A stretch of 30,045 nucleotides of DNA from a virus. Each line of letters begins with the position of its first letter. Position 1 is the first letter of the stretch. The position numbers and the translations under genes are program-made. Below are positions 6,097-17,895 of this stretch, one piece after another. Under the pieces are notes generated by a model. That model saw only the letters and a list, made by a program, of their open reading frames with translations, ran no database searches and was not told the DNA's origin. Location: positions 2,022-32,066 of IMG/VR virus record IMGVR_UViG_3300030116_007212. One strand, given 5' to 3'.

Positions 6097-6119
6097 AATT
6101 TTTCTCCTGTGTTACTACC

Positions 6120-6147: not shown

Positions 6148-6163
6148 GCAGAATCTTTAGATT

Positions 6164-6789: not shown

Positions 6790-7700
6790 ACTAATACACC
6801 TTCTTGATAATGTGCTATAGCTTTATCTTTCATTTTTAATTCCATATCAACATCAAAATCAATACCATAATTATTGAAAGGTTTTTCCGCATAATCTGCA
6901 TGTTTTCTAGGATTAGGATGATCTGGAATACTTTCACTATAATGAAACAAAGGTTTATATCCATTCCATGTTAATCTACAAAATCTAATAGCCTCTTCTT
7001 CAGTCCACCCGTCAGGATGGCAGGCATGATGTAGATAGTCAAATGTAATAGGTATTTTAGTTTTAGGGTAAAAATCGTTTACTAATTGTTTAACACTCCA
7101 ACAATTAAGTTTGTCGTCATTTTCTACTACAATTCTATCTCTACACATTGGATCGAGTAGCATAAAATTGTCATAGAATCTATCAACTACTTCTGCGTTA
7201 GTACCCTCTCTGTTATTGATATGGATATTCATAGGAGAATTATAGTCTGGTGGACAACCTATACGATCCAGAAAACTGCTATAAAAATTAAGTTCTGTAA
7301 TAGTTTTATCAACCGCATTTTGATTAGTAGATGCTAATACATTAAACTCACTTGGATGACAACTAATTCTGACATTTGATTCCTGTACTGTTTTATACAG
7401 CATATCAAAAGCACCTTCTATTGCTTCATAGTTGGGTAATTCTTCCCAATCTATATTTGCCTTATCATAAGTCATCAAAGGGAAAAGATCACTACTAATT
7501 CTGTAGCAATAGTTACGTTCTGCACAATATTTAATTGTAGCGTCTGTAACTACTAAATTATTTAATATTCTGTCACCTAGTATAGACAGTGCTTCTTCAC
7601 GGGGTAAAGAACTGAATCTCTTATAGGTCATAGTTTGAAATTTAAGTGGAGTGTCTGACTCTCTTAAATCTAACGATATACAGCATAGTCCAAATTGCAT
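6786..7700 (-). CDS. uvsE: UV damage endonuclease (UvdE/UvsE family)
   Basis: 304 residues, the usual length of bacterial UvsE. The start MQFGLCCISLDL, the segment YCYRISSDLFPLMT, the metal-site-type ISCHPSEFNVLAS, NIHINNREGT, VVENDDK and the PITFDYLHHACHPDG segment fit the TIM-barrel metal-dependent UV endonuclease family, which nicks 5' of pyrimidine dimers and 6-4 photoproducts to start alternative excision repair. The gene has a consensus promoter (7717-7744), and a terminator of the preceding unit lies just upstream. AGGAGG lies upstream of the ATG. It fits a phage that must repair its genome after sunlight. Confidence 0.9.
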   Translation of the reverse strand: MQFGLCCISLDLRESDTPLKFQTMTYKRFSSLPREEALSILGDRILNNLVVTDATIKYCAERNYCYRISSDLFPLMTYDKANIDWEELPNYEAIEGAFDMLYKTVQESNVRISCHPSEFNVLASTNQNAVDKTITELNFYSSFLDRIGCPPDYNSPMNIHINNREGTNAEVVDRFYDNFMLLDPMCRDRIVVENDDKLNCWSVKQLVNDFYPKTKIPITFDYLHHACHPDGWTEEEAIRFCRLTWNGYKPLFHYSESIPDHPNPRKHADYAEKPFNNYGIDFDVDMELKMKDKAIAHYQEGVLV

Positions 7701-7716
7701 AATAGCCTCCTACTCT

Positions 7717-7744
7717 AGTATAACACATACACAGAGATTGTCAA
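7717..7744 (-). promoter_or_regulatory. Promoter of uvsE (TTGACA-N16-TATACT)
   Basis: -35 at 7744-7739 and -10 at 7722-7717, 16-nt spacer. It lies directly after the terminator at 7745-7779 on the - strand. The spacer lacks the CGATA of the related sites. Confidence 0.8.
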
Positions 7745-7779
7745 GAAAAAAGTGACGACCCTGTTAAAAGTCGCCACTT
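7745..7779 (-). terminator. Rho-independent terminator after the 7.9 kb gene
   Basis: On the - strand AAGTGGCGAC, a 9-nt loop and GGTCGTCACTT are followed by TTTT. One pair is G-U on this strand. It ends the unit that contains the genes at 7.9-8.8 kb. Confidence 0.75.
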
Positions 7780-7880
7780 ATAAAAAAGGGGTTAGGTTTA
7801 CCTAAATTTAATACCGTCCTGTAAACTATTGAGTCTACTATAATTAGTCCTACCCTTTCAGGCTTGTTATAATAGTTATC

Positions 7881-8429
7881 CTATAAATTGAGTCCATCTT
7901 GAAATTCTTGTGGATTAAACAAAGTCCTTTGATCCTGTGATTGTCTTAGTTCTCTTCTTAATCTAAATGCCCTATCTGTTTCATTACTATTTAAATCCCC
8001 TTCATTGATATATTCTCTTAATTCGTCATCAGTCATAGGAACCATAGCTTCTTCTTCATAATAATATTCCCAAGGTTTCCATCTTATTCTAGTATGATCT
8101 ATGGCAATTTGTTTCCTTCCTTTTTTATCTGTATAACTATATTTAACCCAATACCATTCTTCTGCCATCATCGCTTCTTCTATAACTTTAAAATCTGTTG
8201 GATAGTTATTAAAAGAAAATATTTTAAATTGACCCATCTTGTATAAAGACTCTAACACTCCTTCATCTTCAAAATCAACAGGGAAAAATGTATTGTAAAA
8301 TGAATTACCCACAATGGGTGCTTTCCATCCTATGTATTCTATATTTAATAAGAAGCCTATAGATAATCCTACAAACAGTAAAAAGAACTGATAGAATATT
8401 GTCCTACAAACTGTTTTAGTTATAGTCAT
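7881..8429 (-). CDS. Membrane-anchored uncharacterised protein
   Basis: 182 residues. An N-terminal membrane helix (IFYQFFLLFVGLSIGFLL, about 11-28) is followed by a soluble domain rich in aromatic and acidic residues (EEWYWVKYSYTDKKGRKQIAIDHTRIRWKPWEYYYEEE). The charged C-terminus has a helical run of Arg and Gln. The start lies just after the stop of the Gly/Thr-rich gene at 8433, so the two are probably co-expressed from the 8.8 kb late-type promoter. Unknown function; a virion or lysis-related role is possible. Confidence 0.65.
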   Translation of the reverse strand: MTITKTVCRTIFYQFFLLFVGLSIGFLLNIEYIGWKAPIVGNSFYNTFFPVDFEDEGVLESLYKMGQFKIFSFNNYPTDFKVIEEAMMAEEWYWVKYSYTDKKGRKQIAIDHTRIRWKPWEYYYEEEAMVPMTDDELREYINEGDLNSNETDRAFRLRRELRQSQDQRTLFNPQEFQDGLNL

Positions 8430-8432
8430 AGT

Positions 8433-8765
8433 TTATTCCACAATGACATTTAACAAATCATCAACACTATTTTCGGGATAATTTAATACAAACCTAAAGT
8501 TAATATTTCTAGTCATAATAGCACTACCAGAAACATTTGTGCCAATACTTTTACTATCTGAAACTTTTACATTACTATAATTACCAGTAGCAAATGCACT
8601 CGCTAATGTTGTAGCTAAACCAAACGCTAAATTCGCTACTCCGCTACCAGTTCCTACCCCAGTTGGAATAAAACTTGTAATACTTCCACTAGGAATATTC
8701 AATATACCTGTTCCAACAGTTGCCCCAGTAAATATTTCTGTTAATGAATCTGTTGTAAATGCCAT
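8433..8765 (-). CDS. Putative virion-associated Gly/Thr/Ser-rich protein
   Basis: 110 residues. The N-terminal two thirds are low-charge and rich in Gly, Thr, Ser and Ala (FIPTGVGTGSGVANLAFGLATTLASAFATG), then a beta-like part (SIGTNVSGSAIMTRNINFRFVLNYPEN). This composition is typical of phage structural or membrane-interacting proteins. It is preceded by a 13-bp motif identical to the one before the fibre operon at 26.8 kb, which suggests late expression. No family recognised. Confidence 0.6.
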   Translation of the reverse strand: MAFTTDSLTEIFTGATVGTGILNIPSGSITSFIPTGVGTGSGVANLAFGLATTLASAFATGNYSNVKVSDSKSIGTNVSGSAIMTRNINFRFVLNYPENSVDDLLNVIVE

Positions 8766-8799
8766 GAGTATTTTGCCTTGTTGGTTAAGATCATATACT

Positions 8800-8812
8800 A
8801 AGTATACACCTA
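8800..8812 (-). promoter_or_regulatory. Candidate late promoter TAGGTGTATACTT
   Basis: The 13-bp motif is identical to 26780-26792 on the + strand. In both places the TATACT lies about 35-38 nt before the start codon and there is no consensus -35. Just upstream on the - strand is an 11-bp tandem repeat (AAAACTAAATC twice). It is probably read by a phage sigma factor. Confidence 0.5.
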
Positions 8813-8904
8813 CATTTGATTTAGTTTTGATTTAGTTTTCATTTGTGGGAATTATGCCCGCAATTATATTTTGATTAGTATAGATAGTGGGTTTTATACC
8901 ATAA

Positions 8905-9000
8905 TTATGAATTAGATAAATATAAAGACACTAGCAGTATAGATACCACTGTAGGGATTATAGCAATAGCACAGAGGTTAGATGTTATAATAGTTGACAA
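8905..9000 (-). CDS. Possible 31-aa single-span membrane peptide
   Basis: A TTG start at 9000 with AAGGG upstream opens a frame that is almost entirely hydrophobic (STIITSNLCAIAIIPTVVSILLVSLYLSNS). It overlaps the end of the frame at 8978-9133. Length and start codon leave it uncertain. Confidence 0.25.
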   Translation of the reverse strand: MSTIITSNLCAIAIIPTVVSILLVSLYLSNS

Positions 9001-9133
9001 TTCGTAAACCCTTATAAAATATAGACTTAGTTAAAATTACCATATGGAAGAATACTAATAAAACCAATAGGGACAATAGAAACAATAGTAGGAATAATAT
9101 AGGGTATTCAATATGCTTTATATCTATTTGCAC
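8978..9133 (-). CDS. Possible 51-aa single-span membrane protein
   Basis: A GTG start at 9133 with a purine-rich GGTGGGCGAG upstream. After a polar start (QIDIKHIEYP) comes a run of about 20 Leu, Phe and Val residues and a basic tail (TKSIFYKGLRIV), a clean membrane-anchor pattern. It lies in an otherwise gene-free 450-nt stretch. Chance cannot be excluded in such AT-rich DNA. Confidence 0.35.
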   Translation of the reverse strand: MQIDIKHIEYPILFLLLFLLSLLVLLVFFHMVILTKSIFYKGLRIVNYYNI

Positions 9134-9214
9134 CTCGCCCACCCGCAATAAGTAGAAATTAAAGTTTTTTCGGCAAAAAACAAGTAAATTTATGCAGAAA
9201 AGAATGAAAATAGG

Positions 9215-9373
9215 TTATTTTTTAATACCTGATGATTTATAACTAATAAGACTAAGACTACTAGAATGTGGAGTATTATTTCTAATCTCCCATGTATTCC
9301 ATAGAAACAAGTGACCGGGAACTATAGTGTCTATAGTATAAGAACATGAATTATAATTATTGGTATTATTCAT
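9215..9373 (-). CDS. Small uncharacterised protein (52 aa)
   Basis: The ATG at 9373 overlaps the end of the upstream gene (stop TAA 9368-9366). The product starts MNNTNNYNSCSYTIDTIVPG and continues with HLFLWNTWEIRNN and a Ser-rich end (HSSSLSLISYKSSGIKK). The non-random composition, with Trp pair and Ser/Leu periodicity, and the coupling argue for a real gene. No family recognised. Confidence 0.5.
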   Translation of the reverse strand: MNNTNNYNSCSYTIDTIVPGHLFLWNTWEIRNNTPHSSSLSLISYKSSGIKK

Positions 9374-9557
9374 CAACCGGAAAATCTATAGGGGTATCTT
9401 CATGTATAATATTAATATCATCTGCCTTACATTCAAACTCTTCACCATTTGGTAAAGATACTAATACGCCTCTATCAAAATCTAGTGCATCTTTAGCATC
9501 TTGTTCTGTTTCAAATTCAGCTAAAATATAATTATATGCTTTCCAGTAATATGGCAT
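9366..9557 (-). CDS. Small acidic protein (63 aa)
   Basis: MPYYWKAYNYILAEFETEQDAKDAL followed by an acidic C-terminus (EFECKADDINIIHEDTPIDFPVDE). AAGGA precedes the ATG. The pattern aligns with small single-domain alpha-beta phage proteins, but no function can be assigned. It has its own promoter at 9592-9619. Confidence 0.65.
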   Translation of the reverse strand: MPYYWKAYNYILAEFETEQDAKDALDFDRGVLVSLPNGEEFECKADDINIIHEDTPIDFPVDE

Positions 9558-9591
9558 TTGATAATCCTTTTAAATTTGGTGGTGATACAGT

Positions 9592-9619
9592 ATAGTAGTA
9601 AACTAAAAGATATAGTCAA
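9592..9619 (-). promoter_or_regulatory. Promoter TTGACT-N16-TACTAT
   Basis: -35 at 9619-9614, -10 at 9597-9592, 16-nt spacer as in the other - strand promoters. It drives the genes at 9366-9557 and 9215-9373. Confidence 0.55.
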
Positions 9620-9752
9620 CCACATATTCTAAATTTTAACAAAAATATTCTTATTGACAAATGGTAGATTCCCGTTATTAATTATGCAGTAGTTGGGTAT
9701 TAATATATACTATCTTCCATATCTCTTCTGTATAATCTATATAAATCTAATA

Positions 9753-9799
9753 GACTACTAAAACTAGCTGACTACGAACAATTCGGAACGATCAGATTA
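9753..9799 (-). repeat. Intergenic repeat element, copy R1
   Basis: A 47-bp stretch beginning GACTACTAAAACTAGCTGAC and containing TACGAACAATTCGGAACGAT. It is about 80% identical to R2. On the - strand it contains two GTTCG-type half sites about 10 bp apart, followed by AGTCAG. Confidence 0.6.
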
Positions 9800-9846
9800 G
9801 TTTAGATGAAACAAATATAATAATTATCTGATTATAAAAATCCCCT

Positions 9847-9893
9847 GACTACTAAAATTGACTGACTACGAACCATCCGTAACGATCGGTATA
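9847..9893 (-). repeat. Intergenic repeat element, copy R2
   Basis: Direct repeat of R1 (GACTACTAAAATTGACTGAC, then TACGAACCATCCGTAACGAT). Downstream it shares ATATTAGGTGGGACA with copy R3 at 10.5 kb. It sits between the terminator of the 9975 gene and the promoter of the 9366 gene. Confidence 0.6.
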
Positions 9894-9927
9894 TATTAGG
9901 TGGGACAATATTAATATATATAGATAT

Positions 9928-9959
9928 AAAAAAAGCCCCCGACATTTCTGCCGGGAGCT
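9928..9959 (-). terminator. Rho-independent terminator after the 9975 gene
   Basis: On the - strand AGCTCCCG, a 9-10 nt loop and CGGGGGCT are followed by seven T. It starts 15 nt after the stop codon. Confidence 0.88.
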
Positions 9960-9974
9960 ACGGAGGGAACAACA

Positions 9975-10304
9975 CTATGATTCTGTAGTATCTCTGATAA
10001 ACATAGAGTCACCAGATACACGAACTGAATATTTACCTATTTTTCTTTCATAATTTTCTTCACCTGTAAGCCAACTACTCAGACAATGAACCTTTACCCA
10101 ATCTCTAGGTGGCAAGGTATGACTATCATTATCATCTGACATGGCTAAAATAATACCATCTTTATCTACTACTTTCCACCCATAAAAATCCTCATCAATC
10201 CAATCTGCCATATTTTCAAATAACCCTATAACTTTTACAGTAGGGCATCTAGCAAATTGTGGGAAAGTATATGTAGCTAATACGTGTTGAATTTTATCGT
10301 CCAT
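9975..10304 (-). CDS. Uncharacterised protein (109 aa)
   Basis: The start at 10304 (MDDKIQHVLATYTFPQ) is chosen because GGAG lies 6 nt upstream; the longer reading would use TTG. The product is acidic, with DWIDEDFYGWKVVDKDGIILAMSDDNDSH and WVKVHCLSSWLTGEENYERKIGKYSVRVSG, which look beta-rich. It stands alone between promoter 10413-10440 and terminator 9928-9959. No family recognised. Confidence 0.7.
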   Translation of the reverse strand: MDDKIQHVLATYTFPQFARCPTVKVIGLFENMADWIDEDFYGWKVVDKDGIILAMSDDNDSHTLPPRDWVKVHCLSSWLTGEENYERKIGKYSVRVSGDSMFIRDTTES

Positions 10305-10412
10305 AGTATTCTCCAATTAGACCACTATTCTTTACTTCCTGCATAACCCGATTACTATAAAGGGTAACAGACAGTATCGACTTTGTGGTGAGGTTGTTCT
10401 TCCGTTACTACC

Positions 10413-10440
10413 ATTCTACTATATATTATCGACTTGTCAA
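10413..10440 (-). promoter_or_regulatory. Promoter TTGACA-N16-TAGAAT
   Basis: -35 at 10440-10435, -10 at 10418-10413, spacer 16 nt with TCGATAATATATAG. Repeat R3 lies just upstream. It drives the gene at 9975-10304. Confidence 0.8.
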
Positions 10441-10458
10441 CCCCTTCGACTTGAACAT

Positions 10459-10510
10459 TTTTAGCTGACTGTAAACATTCGTAAACGATCCGATTATATT
10501 AGGTGAGACA
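10459..10510 (-). repeat. Intergenic repeat element, copy R3
   Basis: Reads TTAGCTGACTGTAAACATTC, then GTAAACGATCCGATTATATT and AGGTGAGACA on the + strand. On the - strand two GTTTAC half sites are spaced 10 bp apart, upstream of the promoter at 10413-10440. Related to R1 and R2. Confidence 0.55.
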
Positions 10511-10536
10511 TTTATCATAATCACTATTATAATTTA

Positions 10537-10546
10537 GGCCCGGGCC
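10537..10546. repeat. GGCCCGGGCC palindrome, copy 1
   Basis: A perfect 10-bp GC palindrome preceded by TTTA. One of four identical copies within 4.4 kb of AT-rich DNA, each near a gene boundary and upstream of a promoter. See findings. Confidence 0.8.
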
Positions 10547-10557
10547 TGAAAGTGCAA

Positions 10558-10612
10558 GAAAAAAGCCAGTCCCGCAGTCTTGGATATCCCCATTGACGCT
10601 GCGGAACTGACT
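10558..10612 (-). terminator. Rho-independent terminator after the 10742 gene
   Basis: On the - strand a 14-bp stem (AGTCAGTTCCGCAG with CTGCGGGACTGGCT, two G-U pairs) is followed by TTTTTTC. The loop of about 21 nt is longer than usual. Confidence 0.85.
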
Positions 10613-10698
10613 TCTAAATCAAGGTTAGCTTTCGTCAAAAATCCATACCATGATTATAAATAAGATAATGATTGGCACAGTGTTGACTCCTTCCAATC

Positions 10699-10727
10699 GG
10701 GGCAGAGGCTGTTGTACAGCATACCCC
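10699..10727 (-). other. Hairpin between stop codon and terminator
   Basis: GGGG (10699-10702) pairs with CCCC (10724-10727) and encloses GCTGT/ACAGC (10708-10712 with 10716-10720). It may protect the 3' end of the mRNA or be part of a bipartite terminator. Confidence 0.4.
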
Positions 10728-10741
10728 AGACAGGGAGGGAA

Positions 10742-11122
10742 TCAGTTGACGGAAACAAGAGGGCGAATTGCATTTCCGAAAAGATGCTTGCGAGCCATGA
10801 TACCGCGACCAGTATAATACTGTCGAACATCACCTGAAGGGTCTTCAGTTACCAGCAAGTTACCGCTGCGAACAAATGCTCCTTTTTGAAGCTCGTCCCT
10901 ACGATAGTTACTGCAAGCATTAAGATGCCTCTTAGTACTGTCAGAAACATGATACTTTTCGATAACCTTCTCGAACGAACGAGGAGCATCATCGTGATGA
11001 GGCTGCAAATATCGGAAACTGATTACGTCACCGACCTTTGCCTTTTCCATAGTCGTAGGCAAGCCAAAGTAGCAAATACCCGCAACAACCAACGCAACAC
11101 CGCAAACAATAGCAATAGTCAT
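10742..11122 (-). CDS. Membrane-anchored uncharacterised protein (126 aa)
   Basis: The start at 11122 (MTIAIVCGVALVVAGICYFG) has AAGGAG 8 nt upstream; the longer reading would begin upstream of the transcription start. One N-terminal membrane helix is followed by a soluble beta-rich part (AKVGDVISFRYLQP, SFEKVIEKYHVSDSTKRHLNACSNYRRDELQKGAFVRSGNLLV, DVRQYYTGRGIM). The second half resembles uncharacterised small proteins of large phages that mediate base or protein interactions; I cannot name a family. It has a near-perfect promoter and strong terminator of its own. Its GC content is higher than in neighbouring genes. Confidence 0.7.
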   Translation of the reverse strand: MTIAIVCGVALVVAGICYFGLPTTMEKAKVGDVISFRYLQPHHDDAPRSFEKVIEKYHVSDSTKRHLNACSNYRRDELQKGAFVRSGNLLVTEDPSGDVRQYYTGRGIMARKHLFGNAIRPLVSVN

Positions 11123-11143
11123 ATTAAATCTCCTTTGTAAATA

Positions 11144-11171
11144 ATTATAGTAAAATTCCCTCAAATGTCAA
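11144..11171 (-). promoter_or_regulatory. Consensus sigma70 promoter TTGACA-N16-TATAAT
   Basis: -35 at 11171-11166 and -10 at 11149-11144 match the bacterial consensus exactly; spacer 16 nt. It drives the gene at 10742-11122. Confidence 0.88.
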
Positions 11172-11185
11172 GGCCAGAGGGCGGA

Positions 11186-11422
11186 TTATTCCGCCGTGAC
11201 CTTGTTGTTATGAGCATCACCTGCTTGTTTTGCAGTTACGCCCGTAACTCTTGCACGCCACACTTTGTAGCCTTGCTCGCTGAACTTTTTGATACCATCT
11301 GACTTGACAGTAGAAGTATTTTGAGTGTGCTGCTGATCTAAATGATTTTGCAGACCTTCAATAACTTTTTCAGAATCAAGATTTTCACCGACCATATCAA
11401 CCTTAAAAGTGTACTTATTCAT
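11186..11422 (-). CDS. Uncharacterised small protein (78 aa)
   Basis: The start MNKYTFKVDMVGENLDSEK at 11422 has GGAG 6 nt upstream. The product is polar, with a helical N-terminal half (SEKVIEGLQNHLDQQ) and a beta-like VWRARVTGVTAKQAGDAHNN. The ending RARVTGVTAKQAGDAHN occurs in small phage proteins of unknown role. Co-transcribed with the acidic gene at 11456. Confidence 0.65.
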   Translation of the reverse strand: MNKYTFKVDMVGENLDSEKVIEGLQNHLDQQHTQNTSTVKSDGIKKFSEQGYKVWRARVTGVTAKQAGDAHNNKVTAE

Positions 11423-11455
11423 AACATTCTCCAAAGTAAAAAGTGTAAACTAAAC

Positions 11456-11602
11456 TCAATCGCACCAGACACTATAAGTCCAATCATCATATTCCAAGTC
11501 GTCGTAATCATCGTCTAGGTAATCGTAAGAATATGGATTCTCGTTGATTGCCTCGTTGAAAGACTCTTCTATGTAATCAGCAATATCATCTGGGTCAGTC
11601 AT
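11456..11602 (-). CDS. Small very acidic protein (48 aa)
   Basis: MTDPDDIADYIEESFNEAIN, then an Asp/Tyr-rich stretch (SYDYLDDDYDDLEYDDWTY) to the TGA at 11456. AGGAGGT-like GGAGGTAAGA precedes the ATG. Small acidic proteins of this kind can mimic DNA and inhibit host nucleic-acid enzymes, but nothing here proves that. Driven by the promoter at 11648-11675. Confidence 0.65.
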   Translation of the reverse strand: MTDPDDIADYIEESFNEAINENPYSYDYLDDDYDDLEYDDWTYSVWCD

Positions 11603-11647
11603 TCTTACCTCCGTTTCTTAGCAACAACCGTTGTTGCTTGTCTCTTA

Positions 11648-11675
11648 AGTATACTATTATTATCGTCATTGTCAA
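11648..11675 (-). promoter_or_regulatory. Promoter TTGACA-N16-TATACT
   Basis: -35 at 11675-11670, -10 at 11653-11648, spacer 16 nt with ACGATAATAATAG. It drives the acidic gene and the 11186 gene. Confidence 0.82.
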
Positions 11676-11755
11676 GTGTTTTCTTTAGCGATAATCATAA
11701 AAAAAGTATTTTTATTTTTGTGCTGTTTGGCATAAGATTGGGGCCTAACGGTCTT

Positions 11756-12526
11756 TTATGCGACCGCCTCCTGTTTGAGAATTTTAAGAGCATTGGCCGC
11801 CTTGCTACCTTTTGGCTGTACGCCGTGAATCAGTAGAGCAAAGTCTTGATTAGCTCGTGCAGGATCAGCGGCGTGAACATCATCATGATCGACTTCTAGA
11901 CCGAGATCGTCTGCTTCTTGTTGGCTGAACACAACCTTAGCAGAGCGTAAACCATGCTTCTCGATTAGTTCGTCAGTGTAGCCTCCGCGACTAGCCGTGA
12001 GAACCAGATTGTTTGGTACGTTGTCACGGTTGGCGATCCAATACTTGAGAGACTTTGTATAGGCATAGAACAGAACATCTGGACGACGACAGGCTACCAG
12101 CATCCACGCTCTGAAATACTTTTCGTTGAAGAAATCACCAGACACATGAATACGCACGACTCTGGCATCTTTGGGTAATGCGATACATAATGCGTCGGCT
12201 ATTTCGAAAGATGTTTTCAGACTATGTATAGCATCGTGATTAGCCTTACGTCTTTTGTACGTGTTGGTGAATAAGACTTCTTGACTAGCAGAAAAACAAC
12301 GGAATTTCGTGTGTGGCCCGTCTTTTATCTTACGACTACCGTCTGCCTGTACGTCCGCCCGACTATGACATTCGTGAGCGAAAGGACAGTCTACCCCCGA
12401 TAACAAATCGAAGGAATACACTTTGGGAGTAGACCGTCCTATCTTAGCACTCAACCAACGAGAGAGAACAGATTTTGCATACTTGTATAGTTTTTTGAGC
12501 TTGTTGTTGGCTACTGAAAATTTCAT
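11756..12526 (-). CDS. GP88-family phage protein
   Basis: 256 residues. The segments GVDCPFAHECHSRAD (44-58), FRCFSASQE, RIHVSGDFFNEKYFRAW and LTASRGGY fit the phage gene-product-88 family known from mycobacteriophages and other phages. Clustered Cys/His residues (C47, C53, C77) suggest a metal or Fe-S site and the family has been compared with radical-SAM-like enzymes, but no activity is established. AAGGAG precedes the ATG. Higher GC content than the AT-rich genes around it. Single-gene unit behind promoter 12563-12590. Confidence 0.7.
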   Translation of the reverse strand: MKFSVANNKLKKLYKYAKSVLSRWLSAKIGRSTPKVYSFDLLSGVDCPFAHECHSRADVQADGSRKIKDGPHTKFRCFSASQEVLFTNTYKRRKANHDAIHSLKTSFEIADALCIALPKDARVVRIHVSGDFFNEKYFRAWMLVACRRPDVLFYAYTKSLKYWIANRDNVPNNLVLTASRGGYTDELIEKHGLRSAKVVFSQQEADDLGLEVDHDDVHAADPARANQDFALLIHGVQPKGSKAANALKILKQEAVA

Positions 12527-12562
12527 ATCGTTGGCTCCTTCGTGGGTGTTTGTTATACTCTG

Positions 12563-12590
12563 AGTATATCATATATATCGGCGTTGTCAA
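12563..12590 (-). promoter_or_regulatory. Promoter TTGACA-N16-TATACT
   Basis: -35 at 12590-12585, -10 at 12568-12563, spacer 16 nt with GCCGATATATATGA. It drives the GP88 gene. The 69-bp repeat copy A lies just upstream. Confidence 0.85.
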
Positions 12591-12613
12591 CTGGTTTTCT
12601 TTAAAAAAATCGG

Positions 12614-12682
12614 TTTTTTGGCTGACTTTATCATAAATATCGTGTCCGGCTAGGTTAGCCGGAACATTTAGGCCCGGGCCTA
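12614..12682 (-). repeat. 69-bp intergenic repeat, copy A
   Basis: Nearly identical (one mismatch seen) to 14899-14967. It holds TTGGCTGACTTTATCATAAA, the hairpin CCGGCTA-GGT-TAGCCGG and the GGCCCGGGCC palindrome (12671-12680). It lies between the structured RNA region and the GP88 promoter. Confidence 0.85.
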
Positions 12683-13120
12683 TATGCTAGTACGGCAAAG
12701 GGGAGTATCAGCTACCGCAGAGTCACGATCCAGTGTTGGGCTCACGCTTCACCGGCGATCTCGCTTGATACTTCTCCTTGCCCCTTTACCGTATGCGGCC
12801 ATAGTAGCCGGGACTTGCACCCGGTAGGTCGTCTTTTGAACTAATAGCCACAGACTTGGCTAATCATCCAACGGTCTGTAACGCCTAGGCATCTATGCCC
12901 TCTATGTATTGTACTGGTGTCTATACGATGTTGGCCCAATCTTCCCCGGCCTAGCCGGAAGGTATAGAACTCCCCCGTTCCCAGTGGAGTACGCTTCGCA
13001 AAGCGTCACCAGTTGTTTGTATTGTAGGACTTAGGTGAAACCCGTTCTAGGGCAACACTTTCCCGTATAGCTATCAGGCTGCCTAGGTGCTATACGCCAT
13101 ATCCGTCTTAATGTATTGTA
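12683..13120 (-). ncRNA. Candidate large structured noncoding RNA
   Basis: 440 nt without a plausible gene, GC-richer than its surroundings and dense in stems. Domain 1 (12691-12794) is closed by a 13-bp helix TACGGTAAAGGGG/CCCCTTTGCCGTA plus GTATCA/TGATAC. Domain 2 (about 12795-12904) has ACAGAC/GTCTGT with TTGG/CCAA and a CCGGG hairpin. Domain 3 (about 12911-13012) is closed by ACTGGTG/CACCAGT and contains ACGCTT/AAGCGT, ACTCC/GGAGT and TCTATAC/GTATAGA around CCGGC/GCCGG. Domain 4 (about 13027-13108) has GTATAGC/GCTATAC and GTG/CAC-CCC/GGG. Domains are separated by TACAATACA (- strand). Two stems have G-U pairs only on the - strand. It starts right after the stop codon of the 13121 gene, probably on its transcript. 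It resembles ornate phage RNAs (GOLLD, ROOL) in style, not in any sequence I can verify. Confidence 0.6.
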
Positions 13121-13468
13121 CTATGTGATCTCCATATTTTCAAGTTCGTTCTCAACCCAACTTTTCGCAATTTCTCTGGTGTTGACTTCGCTTATTGCTG
13201 CTCCTAGTAAATCACCAGCCAAACCTTCTTTACCTTCTCTGATCTCGTCGAGATAGTCTTTTAGTCTGTCGTCAAACCGATACCAACAATGAAACTTTTC
13301 AAATTTATACTGCGGAACTTCTCCCGATGTATCTGTAGCAATAAACAGCTCGATACATTCCCTTGCAACTTCTCGCCAGTATTCGTGTTCTGCTTGGTCG
13401 TTATCCATCCACAAGTTGACCAACCAAGTTTCATAGTTGTACCAGCCGTTGTATTCTTTATTCGTCAT
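13121..13468 (-). CDS. DUF7249-like protein
   Basis: 115 residues starting MTNKEYNGWYNYETWLVNLW. The GWxNxETWxVxLW motif is typical of a small family found in phages and bacteria (recalled as DUF7249). The remainder is acidic and helical. AGGAGG precedes the ATG. It is transcribed from promoter 13497-13524, and its mRNA would continue into the structured RNA at 12.7-13.1 kb. Function unknown. Confidence 0.75.
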   Translation of the reverse strand: MTNKEYNGWYNYETWLVNLWMDNDQAEHEYWREVARECIELFIATDTSGEVPQYKFEKFHCWYRFDDRLKDYLDEIREGKEGLAGDLLGAAISEVNTREIAKSWVENELENMEIT

Positions 13469-13496
13469 TAGTATTCCTCCTAAGTGTTATATCGAC

Positions 13497-13524
13497 ATTC
13501 TACCATATAAACTTTAGCTGTCAA
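13497..13524 (-). promoter_or_regulatory. Promoter TTGACA-N16-TAGAAT
   Basis: -35 at 13524-13519, -10 at 13502-13497, 16-nt spacer (ending TATATGG). It drives the 13121 gene and probably the structured RNA. Confidence 0.8.
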
Positions 13525-13546
13525 TAGAAAAAAAAAGATTTTTTTA

Positions 13547-13556
13547 GGCCCGGGCC
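13547..13556. repeat. GGCCCGGGCC palindrome, copy 3
   Basis: Same 10-bp palindrome with TTTA before it. A small CAGGGT/ACCCTG hairpin (about 13563-13581) is beside it. It lies between the 13609 gene and promoter 13497-13524. Copy 2 is at 12671-12680, inside the 69-bp repeat. Confidence 0.8.
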
Positions 13557-13608
13557 CGAGACAGGGTATTAAAACCCTGCATCGAAACCCGCTTGAGCAG
13601 CAGCACCC

Positions 13609-13803
13609 TCATTTAGATGCAGTAACATCGTAAGGATAATTCCAGCTATAAGGGCTATTCCTAACAGCTTCATTGTGTCTTTTTGTTTGGTCGTCAATTT
13701 CATTCTCCCCTTCAAATAGAACAGTGTGAATACTCCACATCAATACTATACCGATAGTGTAACCGATTACAACGCTCTGAAAATCTAGGTTTATAATATT
13801 CAT
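13609..13803 (-). CDS. Small membrane protein (64 aa)
   Basis: One membrane helix near the N-terminus (SVVIGYTIGIVLMWSIHTVLF, about 10-30) followed by a polar tail (EGENEIDDQTKRHNEAVRNSPYSWNYPYD). The ATG overlaps the stop of the upstream gene (ATGA). Family unknown. Confidence 0.65.
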   Translation of the reverse strand: MNIINLDFQSVVIGYTIGIVLMWSIHTVLFEGENEIDDQTKRHNEAVRNSPYSWNYPYDVTASK

Positions 13804-14036
13804 CTTTCCTCCATTCTGAAAGTCTCAACTTCACAACCTATCTGCTGCTCCACAATCCCTGTGACTGCTGCCAGTTGTTCGCTTCGTTCCAGTGAACAGG
13901 TCTTATCGACTTTAGGAACACAAACAAATACTTCTGGTCTCTCTTCACCCTCCCAGTCTACTACATCGTAACAATGGAAGTATTGACTATTAGGGTTCCT
14001 GTTTTCTTCGTGTACATTCCAACTATGCTGTTTCAT
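13800..14036 (-). CDS. Uncharacterised protein (78 aa)
   Basis: MKQHSWNVHEENRNPNSQYF, then a beta-like segment (FHCYDVVDWEGEERPEVFVCVPKV) and an acidic C-terminus. GAGGA precedes the ATG. It overlaps the genes on both sides (14 nt and 4 nt), so it is part of the 14.6-13.6 kb operon. Confidence 0.65.
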   Translation of the reverse strand: MKQHSWNVHEENRNPNSQYFHCYDVVDWEGEERPEVFVCVPKVDKTCSLERSEQLAAVTGIVEQQIGCEVETFRMEER

Positions 14037-14184
14037 AAAAATTCCTCACGTAAAGTATGTTTGCTGAAATCCTCATTCCGTCCGTGTCGTTAGTCTCCCA
14101 ACAACTCACATAGTACAGTTGTACCAAACGTGTCGATAGCTTGTCAAGTATATCGTACAAACTTTTTTCCCTGTACTCATTCAT
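14023..14184 (-). CDS. Uncharacterised small protein (53 aa)
   Basis: The start MNEYREKSLYDILDKLSTRL at 14184 overlaps the stop of the preceding gene (ATGA-type, 8 nt), which fits better than a 68-residue reading from TTG. The product is helical. No family recognised. Confidence 0.6.
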   Translation of the reverse strand: MNEYREKSLYDILDKLSTRLVQLYYVSCWETNDTDGMRISANILYVRNFYETA

Positions 14185-14353
14185 CGTCTTTATATCTCCG
14201 TAGTAATTCTTTGGCTCCTGACTTGACAATATTTTCCCAAGCTTCTACATCCTCTCCTCTCAATTTTGCCTTGGGAATTTCATCTCCTGCCCAACGAACC
14301 CAGTCCTGTATATCTTCAGTTTCAAATTCATCAAAATAGTATGGCATGTTCAT
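14177..14353 (-). CDS. Small uncharacterised protein (58 aa)
   Basis: Starts MNMPYYFDEFETEDIQDWVR at 14353 with GGGGGT 6 nt upstream and ends at TGA 14179-14177. It is a charged, mostly helical protein (EIPKAKLRGEDVEAWENI). It fills the gap between the 14357 and 14023 genes with short spacing at both ends, so it is convincing despite its size. Confidence 0.65.
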   Translation of the reverse strand: MNMPYYFDEFETEDIQDWVRWAGDEIPKAKLRGEDVEAWENIVKSGAKELLRRYKDDE

Positions 14354-14356
14354 AGT

Positions 14357-14605
14357 TTACCCCCAATCTTCTGGATAGTCAACAACGTCCATATACATAT
14401 CACCGATATAGTCGTCACCAGTGTACAAATCCTGATATTCTTCATACATGGTAGGCTGTCCGTCATCATCGGAATCATAGATGTCGTATTGATCATCTTC
14501 CATCATGCCGCGTAGCGTGTCGATACTTTCATTTGTAAACTCAACGGGATCAAGACCATCAACGTCATCAAAGTCTGAACGGTAAATGTTTTCTGAAGGT
14601 GTCAT
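14357..14605 (-). CDS. Acidic uncharacterised protein (82 aa)
   Basis: The start MTPSENIYRSDFDDVDG at 14605 has GGAG 7 nt upstream and lies downstream of the promoter at 14639-14666; a 93-residue reading would begin at the -10 box. The product is very rich in Asp, Tyr and Met (YDIYDSDDDGQPTMYEEYQD). No domain recognised; the acidity resembles DNA-mimic proteins, without proof. Confidence 0.65.
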   Translation of the reverse strand: MTPSENIYRSDFDDVDGLDPVEFTNESIDTLRGMMEDDQYDIYDSDDDGQPTMYEEYQDLYTGDDYIGDMYMDVVDYPEDWG

Positions 14606-14638
14606 ATTCATTCTCCAAGGGTTAAGTGTTATATCCAA

Positions 14639-14666
14639 AGTCTACCATATTATCGTCAGGTGTCAA
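14639..14666 (-). promoter_or_regulatory. Promoter TTGACA-N16-TAGACT
   Basis: -35 at 14666-14661, -10 at 14644-14639, spacer 16 nt with GACGATAATATGG. It drives the operon 14605-13609. Confidence 0.82.
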
Positions 14667-14675
14667 GCACAATCT

Positions 14676-14831
14676 TTAATTTTTTTCAAGAATTGTATCC
14701 AAATAAATCTCACCCGGCGTAATAACGTATCCATACTCACAATTAGGGGTATACACGCCAAAATATACTTTTCCGTTGTCATACCCTTCAAAGCCAATCA
14801 TCATCCCAAATATAGTGTAGATTGTCAACAT
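14676..14831 (-). CDS. Small uncharacterised protein (51 aa)
   Basis: ATG at 14831 with GGAG 7 nt upstream, TAA at 14678-14676. The product starts MLTIYTIFGMMIGFEGYDNG and continues with strand-like KVYFGVYTPNCEYGYVITPG. Upstream is a weak promoter-like stretch with TCGATAAGTATTAT near 14.86 kb and repeat copy B. No family recognised. Confidence 0.55.
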   Translation of the reverse strand: MLTIYTIFGMMIGFEGYDNGKVYFGVYTPNCEYGYVITPGEIYLDTILEKN

Positions 14832-14898
14832 TATTTTTCTCCGTGGGTTATTGTTTCCTATATAATACTTATCGACCCTTTACTATAAGAACTTTACC

Positions 14899-14967
14899 TT
14901 TTTTGGCTGACTTTATCATAAATATCATGTCCGGCTAGGTTAGCCGGAACATTTAGGCCCGGGCCTA
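14899..14967 (-). repeat. 69-bp intergenic repeat, copy B
   Basis: Matches 12614-12682 with one mismatch seen (G to A after AAATATC). It ends in the fourth GGCCCGGGCC palindrome (14956-14965), which touches the stop codon of the 14965 gene. Confidence 0.85.
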
Positions 14968-15228
14968 TTTTGGAATATAGGCTATACGCTCCCCTCTTTC
15001 GATTTGCTTTCGGTATATTTCAATTCGCTTGTCTTTTTCAGCCTGTACTCGTTTCGCTTCTGTTATCTTATCTCGTCGATCGCATTTACGTTCTATGTCT
15101 GCTAACGATACACAGTCTGAACGTTGATCTTGAAATTCTTCAGGCAACCAATGGTTAGGAACTGTAAAACATTCTTTAATAGCCTTGTCAAATTCAGCGA
15201 ATAGTTCTGTAGCGGTTTTACTTTGCAT
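14965..15228 (-). CDS. Uncharacterised coiled-coil-like protein (87 aa)
   Basis: The start MQSKTATELFAEFDKAIKEC at 15228 overlaps the end of the preceding gene; the longer 137-residue reading would run deep into that gene. The C-terminal half is a charged helix (ERKCDRRDKITEAKRVQAEKDKRIEIYRKQIERG). The stop codon abuts the GGCCCGGGCC palindrome. Confidence 0.6.
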   Translation of the reverse strand: MQSKTATELFAEFDKAIKECFTVPNHWLPEEFQDQRSDCVSLADIERKCDRRDKITEAKRVQAEKDKRIEIYRKQIERGERIAYIPK

Positions 15229-15571
15229 TGTAAGCGTACTCCCCAGTGTTAAAATTTCTGATCTGCTGTAATAAATCTGCAACTTCAAAAAAGTCACGCC
15301 ACCCAATAACATCAACACATCCAAGATACTCGTTAATTGGCTCATCGTATACAATCTCACTTGTGATATCTGGATCACATCCGAGAGGATACTTTAAAAT
15401 CGCCACCTCAAAATAGCCTGCATGGCCACCATAAGTACCACTATGGCATGCGACACTAGCTCCAAGTCCGTTGCTGAAATAGTAGCGTTTAACATATCTT
15501 CCTTTCTTGTGTGCTTCTGCTTCAAACCGTGTTTCATTAAGCTTCAGTGGATTCTTTTTTGTTTTCTTCAT
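15218..15571 (-). CDS. Uncharacterised protein (117 aa)
   Basis: The start MKKTKKNPLKLNETRFEAEA at 15571 lies 4 nt after the preceding stop, with GAGGA upstream. The middle FSNGLGASVACHSGTYGGHAGYFEVAIL looks like a compact beta domain. DVIGWRDFFEVADLLQQIRNF near the C-terminus is helical. No family recognised. Confidence 0.65.
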   Translation of the reverse strand: MKKTKKNPLKLNETRFEAEAHKKGRYVKRYYFSNGLGASVACHSGTYGGHAGYFEVAILKYPLGCDPDITSEIVYDEPINEYLGCVDVIGWRDFFEVADLLQQIRNFNTGEYAYNAK

Positions 15572-15575
15572 GTGA

Positions 15576-15764
15576 TTAGTCCTCAATATGTGAAACGTAA
15601 ACTTTACATTGTAACTGCTTTTCTGCTCGCCTGACAGCATCCTGTTCTGACGTAGCTTTCATTTCTCCTAATACTCGACCCGTGTATAGATGATAGACAA
15701 CATATACTCCGGTCATGTGTGTCCGTCTAAACTTAGGGTGTGACTTGCTTGCCCATACTCTCAT
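15576..15764 (-). CDS. Small basic protein (62 aa)
   Basis: MRVWASKSHPKFRRTHMTGVYVVYHLYTGRVLGEMKATSEQDAVRRAEKQ. The second part (VYVVYHLYTGRVLGEMKATSEQDAVRRA) has the beta-beta-alpha pattern of small uncharacterised domains frequent in phages. GGAG precedes the ATG, which follows the small membrane gene by 10 nt. Confidence 0.6.
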   Translation of the reverse strand: MRVWASKSHPKFRRTHMTGVYVVYHLYTGRVLGEMKATSEQDAVRRAEKQLQCKVYVSHIED

Positions 15765-15774
15765 AATTTTACTC

Positions 15775-15867
15775 CTAACAAATTGGTGTGTAATTCCAGA
15801 ACACAGATACTACGATAACAAAACAGACTACAATAATCAATAACAGTTCTTGATCAGACTCGTGCAT
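15775..15867 (-). CDS. Small single-span membrane peptide (30 aa)
   Basis: The ATG at 15867 overlaps the end of the nuclease-like gene. The product MHESDQELLLIIVVCFVIVV plus SVFWNYTPIC is one membrane helix with an acidic N-terminus. It fills the otherwise empty 90 nt between two genes, which supports expression. Confidence 0.45.
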   Translation of the reverse strand: MHESDQELLLIIVVCFVIVVSVFWNYTPIC

Positions 15868-16318
15868 TAGGTATACCTCCAAGACCTTTGATGAATGGAC
15901 TCTTTACGTTAAGACATCCGCTATTATTAACCATATCCGATGCCCGTCTACTTGTCAAGTGACGAATTTCGATATAGTCGGGGTGAATGAAAACTAATAT
16001 TAGATCGTCAAAATTTTCAGGCTTGATGCCCTTGAAGTAGAATCGTTCCTGTCCTTTCTGCACCATAGCGGATTTGACCTCGATCCGACCTTGATCTGTG
16101 TCGATATCGAATGGATGCGATCCGCCGATGTGATGGATTCCGGTGTAGTCTAATCGCATGAGGATCTTGCAGACTGCAATTTCTGCGACCTCGCCGCGGT
16201 GCTTTGTTGTCATTTCAGACAATCGCCACGCGGTAAAATTTCGCTCTGGACTGAAATCGTCACGGATAGAATCTTTTGTGCATTCTGCGATCGCTGTATT
16301 GAAAACTGTGTCAAACAT
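15854..16318 (-). CDS. PD-(D/E)XK nuclease-like protein
   Basis: 154 residues from the ATG at 16318 (GGAG upstream; the two-codon longer reading starts with TTG). HRGEVAEIAVCKILMRL gives a helix with conserved-type Glu, then SHPFDIDTDQGRIEVKSA, where PFD (D71) and EVK (E80, K82) match the catalytic signature of the PD-(D/E)XK fold. The next strand (RFYFKGIKPENFDDLILVFI) fits the core. The size suits a small restriction-like or repair endonuclease. The product probably cuts or binds DNA. Higher GC content than its neighbours and promoter 16352-16380 upstream. Confidence 0.75.
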   Translation of the reverse strand: MFDTVFNTAIAECTKDSIRDDFSPERNFTAWRLSEMTTKHRGEVAEIAVCKILMRLDYTGIHHIGGSHPFDIDTDQGRIEVKSAMVQKGQERFYFKGIKPENFDDLILVFIHPDYIEIRHLTSRRASDMVNNSGCLNVKSPFIKGLGGIPNARV

Positions 16319-16351
16319 ATCCAATTCTCCGGTGGTTAAGACAATAATGTG

Positions 16352-16380
16352 AGTCTAATATATATATCGACAGATTGCAA
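16352..16380 (-). promoter_or_regulatory. Promoter TTGCAA-N17-TAGACT
   Basis: -35 at 16380-16375, -10 at 16357-16352, spacer 17 nt with GTCGATATATATAT. A weaker member of the same family. It drives the nuclease-like gene and the operon after it. Confidence 0.6.
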
Positions 16381-16388
16381 GCGGAAGT

Positions 16389-16568
16389 TTAACCCGCCCC
16401 ATAAAAATCCAGACTCGCCTGAAAGTGGACTGCTTCGGAATCGTCATAATCGACACGATCCTCGATCACTTCGCAATGCTCGAGGCATGCTGGACAAATT
16501 TGTGAATCCGATTGAACGTATTCACCACAGCAATCGGTAACATAGTAGATTTCAAAATTCTTACTCAT
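16389..16568 (-). CDS. Small Cys-rich (zinc-binding) protein (59 aa)
   Basis: The start MSKNFEIYYVTDCCGEYVQS at 16568 has AAGGA upstream. Cys residues in DCCGEY, CPAC and HCEV could bind zinc. Acidic C-terminus. It is the first gene on the - strand left of the 16.6-16.9 kb control region. Function unknown. Confidence 0.6.
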   Translation of the reverse strand: MSKNFEIYYVTDCCGEYVQSDSQICPACLEHCEVIEDRVDYDDSEAVHFQASLDFYGAG

Positions 16569-16701
16569 AATTAAAATTCCTTTAAGGGTTAAAAAGTTTT
16601 CTTTACTGGTAGAATATATCTGCAATTACTATGCCAAAACTTTAAAATTTTTTTATCCCTATTTTTATAGGGTTAAATACTTCTATCCCCCATAATAACC
16701 G

Positions 16702-16747
16702 TGTAGCATTTTGCAAAAATTGTAGCATTTTGCATTGCATTTTGCAA
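16702..16747. repeat. Iteron-like direct repeats TGTAGCATTTTGCA
   Basis: TGTAGCATTTTGCA at 16702-16715 and 16721-16734, then TTGCATTTTGCAA at 16735-16747. Repeated TTGCA/TGCAA also makes small palindromes. Likely operator or replication-protein sites near the switch between the two transcription directions. Confidence 0.65.
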
Positions 16748-16825
16748 CACTGCTATTTTAGTGTATCATTTTGAGATAAGCTACCACCCTGTAAGTGTAC
16801 AAAATTACTGTACATATTGCTACCA

Positions 16826-16845
16826 CCCCCAAGAGGGGTTTTTTT
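16826..16845 (+). terminator. Possible + strand terminator without an upstream gene
   Basis: CCCC-AAGA-GGGG followed by TTTTTTT. The stem is short (4-5 bp) but the T-run is good. No + strand gene lies upstream within the gene-free region, so it might end a short regulatory RNA or block transcription entering the late operon. Confidence 0.4.
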
Positions 16846-16915
16846 GTTTTCTGTGTACCCCCCATTGGGGTTAAAAATTTCGCTGGTGGTGCAAAAATAG
16901 TAGGGAGACTCTATA

Positions 16916-17113
16916 TTAATTAACCACTTTCCCCTTTGGTCTTCCATTTGATTTCACAGATCCTATGGTTCTTCGTTGCTGTCGTACCATACTCCGCGTA
17001 ATAGGTTGTCCGGTTTGTTCGGTTAAAATTCTAGCGATTTCTTTGTCACTTAGATTCCCACATTCGTTTCTTATGTATTCTTTTTCCGCTATTGTCCACT
17101 TTTTATATTTCAT
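16916..17113 (-). CDS. Small Myb/HTH-type DNA-binding protein (65 aa)
   Basis: MKYKKWTIAEKEYIRNECGNLSDKEIARILTEQTGQPITRSMVRQQRRTIG reads as a tri-helical SANT/HTH domain: W-x-AEKEYI helix, DKEIARIL helix, then a recognition helix with RSMVRQQRR. Basic C-terminal tail. It is transcribed away from the late operon, and a related domain begins the terminase small subunit (LGLEEQEYIRENFGKLTVEQIAEHL). Likely regulator at the divergent promoter region. Confidence 0.7.
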   Translation of the reverse strand: MKYKKWTIAEKEYIRNECGNLSDKEIARILTEQTGQPITRSMVRQQRRTIGSVKSNGRPKGKVVN

Positions 17114-17129
17114 AGTATATATGCCTTTC

Positions 17130-17157
17130 TTGACAAAATGTGTATATACAATAATAT
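17130..17157 (+). promoter_or_regulatory. Promoter TTGACA-N16-TAATAT for the rightward operon
   Basis: -35 at 17130-17135, -10 at 17152-17157, again a 16-nt spacer. It lies 33 nt before the first + strand start codon. Confidence 0.65.
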
Positions 17158-17189
17158 ATCATATAAACCACTTTCGGCAAGGTAACATT

Positions 17190-17363
17190 ATGAATAAAAA
17201 TATAAATTCAGTATTACACGTTGTAGCTAGCGAATCTTTGGATGTTTCAGAAGACCTTAAAGCATCCGAAAATAAAGATATAAAGGAATTACTAGATGCC
17301 CAAAATGCTGAAGAACGGAGTACAGGAAGCGGAATTCCTGAAGATACTAGACAAGATAACTAA
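17190..17363 (+). CDS. Small uncharacterised protein (57 aa), first gene of + strand operon
   Basis: MNKNINSVLHVVASESLDVS followed by an acidic, Asp/Glu/Lys-rich part. AAGG lies upstream of the ATG. It overlaps the sigma factor gene by 68 nt in another frame. No family recognised. A longer frame opening upstream at 16965 would cross the promoter and is rejected. Confidence 0.6.
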   Translation: MNKNINSVLHVVASESLDVSEDLKASENKDIKELLDAQNAEERSTGSGIPEDTRQDN

Positions 17364-17895
17364 AAAATTAAGCTATACTTTTAAATTCGGATATCACAGC
17401 GCAGAAGATATAAAACAACAAGCTGCAATATTCGCGTTAGAAGGACTAGAAAAATACGATAATAAACGTCCACTAGAAAACTTTCTTTGGACACACATAC
17501 GCAATCGCCTGTTTAACTTTAAAAGAGACAAATATCAACGTCCCGACAAACCTTGCTTATCTTGTCCACACCATAGAGCTAATCAACAAAACTTTTGTGG
17601 CAAGTATTTTCACCAATCAGAGTGTAAAGAGTATTCTTCTTGGTGTAAACGAAACGACAGTAAAAAGAATATCATGAGACCAATGGTGGTAGATAATCTT
17701 AATGAACTATTTAAAAGTAATCAAGTTACAGACTTTTTACAAAATTCCGAAATATTAAATAAGATAGACAACAACCTTCCTGTAAAATACAGAGAGCATT
17801 ACTTAAAAATGCTACATGGAGACAAAGTTGCTAAATCTGACCAAAGAACCGTAATAGAACAAATTTCCTTAATTTTACAAATCAATAATGACTAA
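17296..17895 (+). CDS. Sigma-70-family factor (late, gp55-like)
   Basis: 199 residues. HSAEDIKQQAAIFALEGLEKYD and RPLENFLWTHIRNRLFNFKRDKYQRP (34-82) match sigma region 2: the DLxQEAxxGLxxAxEKYD helix and the FxxWxxxxIRNxxxxxxR helix that binds the -10 element and polymerase. An insert with Cys/His (CLSCPHHRANQQNFCGKYF, CKEYSSWC) could form a zinc site. The C-terminus (LPVKYREHYLKML, KVAKSDQRTVIEQISLIL) only loosely resembles region 4. The layout fits phage late sigma factors such as T4 gp55. AAGGA lies 8 nt before the ATG. Probably directs transcription of virion genes from motifs such as TAGGTGTATACTT (inference). Confidence 0.75.
   Translation: MPKMLKNGVQEAEFLKILDKITKKLSYTFKFGYHSAEDIKQQAAIFALEGLEKYDNKRPLENFLWTHIRNRLFNFKRDKYQRPDKPCLSCPHHRANQQNFCGKYFHQSECKEYSSWCKRNDSKKNIMRPMVVDNLNELFKSNQVTDFLQNSEILNKIDNNLPVKYREHYLKMLHGDKVAKSDQRTVIEQISLILQINND

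Follow-up and report, generated by a model that had tools for sequence, protein, structure and literature searches.

A modular folded phage RNA with a tRNA-like domain that carries a pseudoknot in the place of the anticodon arm

A phage with a large genome encodes a modular, folded RNA of approximately 430 nt, described here from a window of 30,045 nucleotides (that is, the whole stretch of DNA that was analysed, itself part of a 32,066-base virus record). In aligned homologous sequences, the tRNA-like domain (TLS) of this RNA is shown to keep a 7–8-bp acceptor, a D-like hairpin, a T-arm and a purine-CC 3′ end, and its anticodon arm to be replaced by a helix with a covarying pseudoknot. We regard the structure as well supported and the function as inferred; on balance, we lean towards a non-coding phage RNA of modular build with a tRNA-like domain at its core, matured in the manner of a tRNA operon and acting as a stable tRNA mimic. 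The analysis provides covariation-supported structures for a phage RNA family that is absent from Rfam, with a pseudoknot in the anticodon-arm place, several interior types and modules in permuted order as new features.

Locus and parts of the RNA

The RNA is read from the minus strand (13120→12691); its 5′ end adjoins the stop codon of a DUF7249 gene, and a GP88 gene lies downstream. Window positions 6759–17526 are 99.9% identical to a 159,659-base contig (L083), which carries the RNA at 100% identity. An earlier note on this DNA had proposed a large, multi-domain structured RNA at 12683–13120 that no gene or known RNA explains, and both points stand: the minus strand of 12600–13120 folds better than 100 of 100 shuffles (z −3.68), homologues covary, no open reading frame of at least 60 amino acids lies inside 12683–13120 (the longest stop-to-stop frame there has 54 codons), and Rfam and ARAGORN find only a tmRNA elsewhere in the window. 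The plus strand of 12600–13120 is less clear than the minus strand (z −1.91, with 4 of 100 shuffles equally good). Folding scores of single domains are modest (z −1.73 for D1, −2.80 for D2, −1.69 for the TLS and −2.89 for D4; −1.06 for the plus-strand TLS), and the decisive support is covariation in homologues, not folding energy.

The linker TACAATACA occurs three times at the locus, always on the minus strand (12905–12913, 13018–13026 and 13112–13120), and five times in the whole window against 0.61 expected. The earlier picture of one linker between all four domains needs correction, as the copies stand before D1, D2 and the TLS and none lies between the TLS and D4; D4 ends at about 12691, and 12614–12683 forms a separate repeat. 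From 5′ to 3′ on the minus strand, the order is linker, D1, linker, D2, linker, TLS, D4, with the following parts:

13115–13143, minus: promoter-like pair TTGAAA, 17 nt, TACAAT, with the −10 overlapping the first linker; a weak candidate for the RNA's own promoter
13112–13120, minus: first linker TACAATACA, right after the stop codon of the DUF7249 gene (13121–13468)
13027–13114, minus: D1, a three-way junction of a closing helix, a hairpin CGUAUAGC/GCUAUACG and a hairpin with CCC/GGG; 11 distinct sequences
13097–13101, minus: UAUGG, 5′ strand of what we take to be an 11-nt GNRA-tetraloop-receptor sequence
13030–13035, minus: CCUAAG, 3′ strand of the same presumed receptor sequence
13018–13026, minus: second linker TACAATACA, between D1 and D2
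12914–13012, minus: D2, a four-way junction with closing helix CUGGUG/CACCAG and hairpins 1, 2 and 3
12978–12981, minus: GGAA (GNRA) loop of D2 hairpin 2, the predicted partner of the D1 receptor
12905–12913, minus: third linker TACAATACA, whose terminal CA overlaps the TLS acceptor
12796–12906, minus: TLS, with acceptor CAUAGAG/CU-A-CUAUG, D-like hairpin, long arm, T-arm and 3′ GCCG
12888–12899, minus: D-like hairpin GGCA-UAGA-UGCC, with the outer pair G-C changed to A-U in 3 of 7
12825–12887, minus: arm in place of the anticodon arm, UAGGCGU/ACG-A-CCUA, then a hairpin of UUGGA/UUCAA and UAGCC/GGCUA whose loop pairs back; covariation
12874–12878, minus: pseudoknot strand CAGAC; covariation
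12851–12855, minus: pseudoknot strand GUCUG; covariation
12808–12824, minus: T-arm CCGGG-UGCAAGU-CCCGG; covariation
12796–12799, minus: 3′ tail GCCG, which reads purine-CC-R in almost every homologue
12691–12793, minus: D4, a long helix UACGGUAAAGGGG/CCCCUUUGCCGUA; predicted by folding (z −2.89), with no homologue found
12614–12683, minus: 70-nt repeat of two GC-rich hairpins downstream of the RNA, possibly an end signal; a second copy at 14899–14968, 2.3 kb away, is 99% identical

Homologues and covariation

The RNA has no blastn match among 50,697 phage and 72,556 plasmid records, and relatives were reached in viral contigs through GP88, a D1 pattern and a T-arm pattern. With copies counted once, there are 11 distinct RNAs (in the window, L084, L213, L214, L220, L222, L224, L311, L316, L323 and L324), and the carriers are 13 viral contigs besides the window's record, including duplicates in L083 (a copy of the window's RNA), L219 (of that in L220) and L345 (of that in L311). 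By reading, the modules stand in the order TLS-D1-D2 in L084, L213, L214, L220 and L222 and as TLS-D1 in L316, L323 and L324; in L224, TLS-D1 is followed by other sequence, and in L311 a TLS is followed by a second TLS and then D1. The permuted order D1-D2-TLS-D4 was read in the window alone.

The family is narrow. A covariance model of D1 finds 8 of 100 records, known carriers included, plus one chance-like match (8 of 50 in the first half and 0 of 50 in the second), and finds D1 in none of 26 records from loci brought in by a 720-amino-acid gene, loci in which matches to the RNA are of chance length only. A scan for linker pairs yielded, among the matches listed, no relative besides the window's own phage (L197), and the class A TLS pattern (below) had no match in genome contigs. 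One match to the D1 model, in L306 (E 0.001), was dropped as chance because by eye it lies inside a reading frame. We found no description of the RNA in the open-access literature, a scope outside which most subscription papers and all preprints fall. Among isolate records, five of the eight with a GP88 relative are Synechococcus phages and the 720-amino-acid protein has no match; the photosystem reaction-centre family PF00124 was found in 0 of 25 records. In L084, the GP88 frame at 5001–5762 has stop codons in the matched stretch, and three other aligned GP88 genes have none.

The TLS falls into classes by its interior. In class A (the window, L213, L214, L222, L224, L311 and L324), the acceptor has 7 bp and a single bulged base, and within it lie a 4-bp D-like hairpin and the other arms; the replacing arm is a 7-bp helix with a bulge, followed by a hairpin whose loop pairs to an upstream strand (that is, the pseudoknot), and the T-arm loop is UGCAAGU. 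Across these seven sequences, 97.0% of 266 cells are paired, two-sided changes occur at 20 of 38 pairs (12.1 in shuffles) and in 47 cells (17.0 shuffled), and covariation is 0.574, compared with 0.227 shuffled and 0.046–0.094 when the partner is slid, although shuffles of related sequences are no strict null for covariation counts, here or below. The pseudoknot CAGAC/GUCUG becomes CCGGA/UUCGG and CCGA/UCGG in relatives, and the helices standing in for the anticodon arm rank among the most variable and yet remain paired (UUGGA/UUCAA becomes UACAU/AUGUA, UUCAC/GUGAA and CGAUC/GAUCG). The first acceptor pair varies as well (U-A, A-U, C-G and G-U), and TLS discriminators are G or A. The TLS of L224 has no D-like hairpin, and its acceptor is only partly paired. 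Class B (L084, L220, L316 and L323) has a different interior sequence in the topology of class A, with two-sided changes in 9 of 34 pairs (2.5 in shuffles) and one acceptor pair mismatched in three of the four.

Further elements were found by reading and with a descriptor of T-arm, acceptor and NCC, namely class C in L085, L254 and L276 (by reading, the helix CUCGUAGG/CCUACGAG of L254 matches ACUAGG/CCUAGU of L085) and one class D element in L311. The descriptor has 25 matches in 6.06 Mb of strands, a count that includes copies because loci overlap, and 0 in sequence shuffled in 2-base blocks; 4 of the matches overlap ARAGORN tRNAs and the other 21 are TLS elements, copies included. It misses L084 and L224 and chooses the wrong 5′ strand in L219/L220. 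One descriptor match, in L358, is AT-rich and 89 nt long. Directly upstream of the class C element in L276, at about 1020–1100, stands a T-arm-like stretch ending CACCA and then a linker TACAATA, perhaps a further tRNA-like unit.

All 15 TLS examined end in purine-C-C, or 13 of 15 without a one-base coordinate shift applied to L084 and L224; the next base is A in 5 (CCA is thus encoded in L222, L224, L311, L324 and L254), G in 9 and T in 1. Eight of the 15 came from searches that required NCC (that in L085 was first seen by eye). Purine-CC is nonetheless present in all seven from searches without that requirement (the window, L084, L213, L214, L220, L222 and L224), and CCA is encoded in 0 of 22 rows for tRNAs of such phages (duplicates included), and we therefore regard the CC as a property of the TLS.

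For D1, 90.9% of cells pair in 11 sequences, two-sided changes occur at 11 of 24 pairs (6.8 shuffled; 2 of 500 shuffles as high) and covariation is 0.375 against 0.196 shuffled, in an alignment fitted to the model; in an unfitted alignment of seven sequences, such changes occur at 7 pairs, compared with 2.0 in shuffles. In the fitted alignment, pair types are no more numerous than in shuffles, and helix 5 has two pairs that often do not form. The two-sided changes in the TLS and D1 thus bear out, in homologues, the structured RNA that had been proposed from one sequence. D1 also holds a conserved unpaired GGAAA. Its closing helix contains UAUGG/CCUAAG exactly in the window and L214, with the variants UAAGG in L084, L213, L220 and L222, UAGGG in L316 and CAUGG/CCUAAA in L224; in L311, L323 and L324, a helix inserted in the closing helix interrupts the receptor sequence. 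A candidate D1 pseudoknot, CUAGG with CCUAG, was dropped because it is broken in L214 and L220. The four-way junction of D2 is found by RNAfold in four of six sequences (not in L084 or L213), and in L222 the junction persists although the closing helix (CCCAGUG/CGCUGGG) and hairpins 1 and 2 differ in sequence. Hairpin 2, by reading, has a GNRA loop in all six (GGAA in the window, L214 and L220; GAGA in L084 and L213; GAAA in L222), and D2 is absent from L311, L316, L323 and L324. As L316 keeps a receptor-like sequence without D2, strict coupling of D1 and D2 is disfavoured.

Comparison with known RNAs

With Rfam 15 at gathering score, the tmRNA is the window's sole match; at E ≤ 5, the one result in 12500–13200 is a Tymo_tRNA-like match below threshold (15.6 bits against a gathering score of 40), and homologous loci yield ordinary tRNAs only. 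No ordinary RNA in Rfam explains the stems, and the third domain, the tRNA-like nature of which had gone unrecognised in the earlier note, is called a tRNA by neither ARAGORN nor Rfam (RF00005); a pseudoknotted arm stands where a canonical cloverleaf has its anticodon arm. The domain is tRNA-like in the general sense that an acceptor is continued by a T-arm with a 7-nt loop and has a CCA-like end.

The suggestion of kinship with GOLLD or ROOL fares less well. Their covariance models have no match at gathering score and none at E ≤ 5 in 12500–13200, and since no Rfam or ARAGORN match explains the RNA, membership is unsupported. What remains is a general likeness: all three are phage-borne, large, ornate and multi-domain, have no known role and contain a tRNA-shaped element, although that of the window RNA is not a tRNA. 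We consider it unlikely that this is a GOLLD/ROOL-like RNA forming multimers or a cage, with the TLS as passenger or handle and the receptor/GNRA contact made between molecules; such a contact could work in trans and the phage-borne, multi-domain character would fit, but the RNA is clearly shorter than the 659-nt ROOL and 800-nt GOLLD, and D2 is missing (by reading) in four relatives.

By anatomy, the closest analogue is the T4 species 1 RNA (rnaC), a stable RNA of 139 nt in a tRNA region (L381, 1409–1547) with relatives in 718 phage records. Like the TLS, it has a tRNA-like outer half around a non-tRNA interior, with a T-arm CCGGG-UUCGAAU-CCCGG and an acceptor. In a comparison of four relatives besides T4, the two U·U acceptor mismatches of T4 become U-A and C-G in Yersinia phage TG1, and two-sided T-stem substitutions occur in that phage as well as in Enterobacter phage myPSH1140. 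The two RNAs share no sequence similarity (blastn, phage collection including the 718 rnaC records), and rnaC differs in its interior, in being without D1 and D2 and in having no encoded CC tail (UAC follows the acceptor). Passages of PMC3014915, PMC9697503 and PMC12685909 call the role of species 1 RNA unknown.

The plant-virus Tymo_tRNA-like family (RF00233) shares the T-arm loop UGCAA with the TLS, which nevertheless scores below its threshold, has a pseudoknotted arm for the anticodon arm and lies in a DNA phage, away from a genome end. A tmRNA, too, has a tRNA-like outer half with other structure in the anticodon-arm place, and the TLS resembles it in this outer half without an anticodon arm; neither Rfam nor ARAGORN finds a tmRNA at the RNA locus, and a separate one lies at 1868–2207. 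D1 shares the core UAUGG/CCUAAG with what we take to be the 11-nt GNRA tetraloop receptor of group I introns (P4–P6), although the window RNA is not an intron.

Maturation, role and alternative readings

We suggest that maturation of the transcript would follow that of a tRNA operon. Enzymes of tRNA maturation read the acceptor, T-arm and purine-CC, and RNase P would recognise these features, with cuts at TACAATACA-type linkers; such cuts would let the permuted D1-D2-TLS-D4 yield the same pieces as the usual order. According to passages of PMC11143913, residues 73–75 influence cleavage by RNase P, and tRNA-like pseudoknot structures of plant viruses are among its substrates. The GNRA loop of D2 is predicted to dock into the D1 receptor and thereby to form a compact body, which would be joined to the TLS. 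The mature TLS may then serve as a non-decoding tRNA mimic that occupies or misleads a host factor reading the outer half of tRNA (candidates are RNase P, a tRNA-directed nuclease and a translation factor), the least certain step of the scheme. We prefer such a mimic because the maturation features are kept and the decoding arm is gone, and because acceptor pairs and discriminator vary among members, which makes one conserved amino-acid identity unlikely; the replacement of the decoding arm changes fast with its fold kept.

The T4 species 1 RNA may likewise mislead or occupy such a factor. This gives a structural hypothesis for that RNA (in both, the part of tRNA that RNase P reads is kept and the decoding part dropped), testable by T4 genetics and RNase P biochemistry. 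More tentatively, and at a level of confidence we would call low, both could belong to an unrecognised phage class of tRNA-mimic RNAs, with the outer half under selection and the decoding arm swapped for fast-changing pseudoknots, in which cassettes are shuffled between TACAATACA-type linkers and joined to scaffolds with a group-I-like tetraloop receptor, T4 species 1 RNA being included by function, and the job of which would be the capture of tRNA-reading host enzymes (RNase P and tRNA-cutting defence nucleases).

It is improbable, in our estimate, that the RNA is a cis-acting untranslated region of the DUF7249 mRNA (upstream) or the GP88 mRNA (downstream). It begins right after the DUF7249 stop codon, and GP88 lies within a few kb in the window, L084, L214, L220, L222 and L224, most of which were fetched through GP88; however, by reading, a TTGACA with a −10-like box stands 4–8 nt before the acceptor in 10 of 11 class A/B elements, and GP88 in the window is provided with a promoter-like site of its own. 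The exception among the elements is that of the window, where the TTGAAA-17-TACAAT pair ends at the first linker and the transcript could also come from the upstream gene; promoter-like sites in 12500–13600 number 4 against 2.1 expected in shuffles.

Somewhat more doubtful still is charging of the TLS by a host synthetase, as an amino-acid carrier or in tmRNA-like rescue. The CCA encoded in five members and the tRNA-like outer half would suit it, but there is no anticodon arm, most members end CCG, the varying first acceptor pair and discriminators leave no common identity set, and the same window holds a normal tmRNA. Even less probable is a catalytic D1-D2 that acts on the TLS or another RNA by cutting or modifying it, for which the group-I-intron-like receptor sequence, the junctions and the unpaired GGAAA of D1 would speak, and against which stand the lack of any ribozyme or intron family match in Rfam and the absence of D2 from four relatives. 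Decay of ordinary tRNA genes, which would account for the remaining T-arm and acceptor, is refuted for practical purposes, as the replaced arm covaries (helices 4–6), which decay would not produce.

Several observations concern the surroundings of the RNA. The stretch 10000–16500 of the window has a G+C content of 0.35–0.49, compared with approximately 0.3 in the flanks, is contiguous in a second contig and is perhaps an acquired cassette. Promoter-like repeats with a CGATA-type spacer, in two families named D3 and D4, precede minus-strand genes at 5722–5781, 6111–6170, 10404–10440, 11639–11698, 12554–12590 and 14639–14689, and a promoter-like stretch of the CGATA type also precedes TLS elements of relatives. 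The phage tmRNA at 1868–2207 (Rfam and ARAGORN) encodes the tag ADTSVLALAA and lies beside a 627-amino-acid gene with SIS and glutamine amidotransferase domains (2214–4097); tmRNAs of two related phages carry an asterisk in ARAGORN output, which we take to mark a permuted tmRNA gene. Finally, a second small element of approximately 65 nt, which has no Rfam match in L085, consists of a hairpin with the constant loop CTAAGTC followed by a second hairpin; it is found in L085 (3536–3600), L229 (756–821 and 3403–3466), L264 (703–774) and L241 (287–356), and the stem of the first hairpin changes on both sides (GTTGC/GCAAC and GTAGC/GCTAC).
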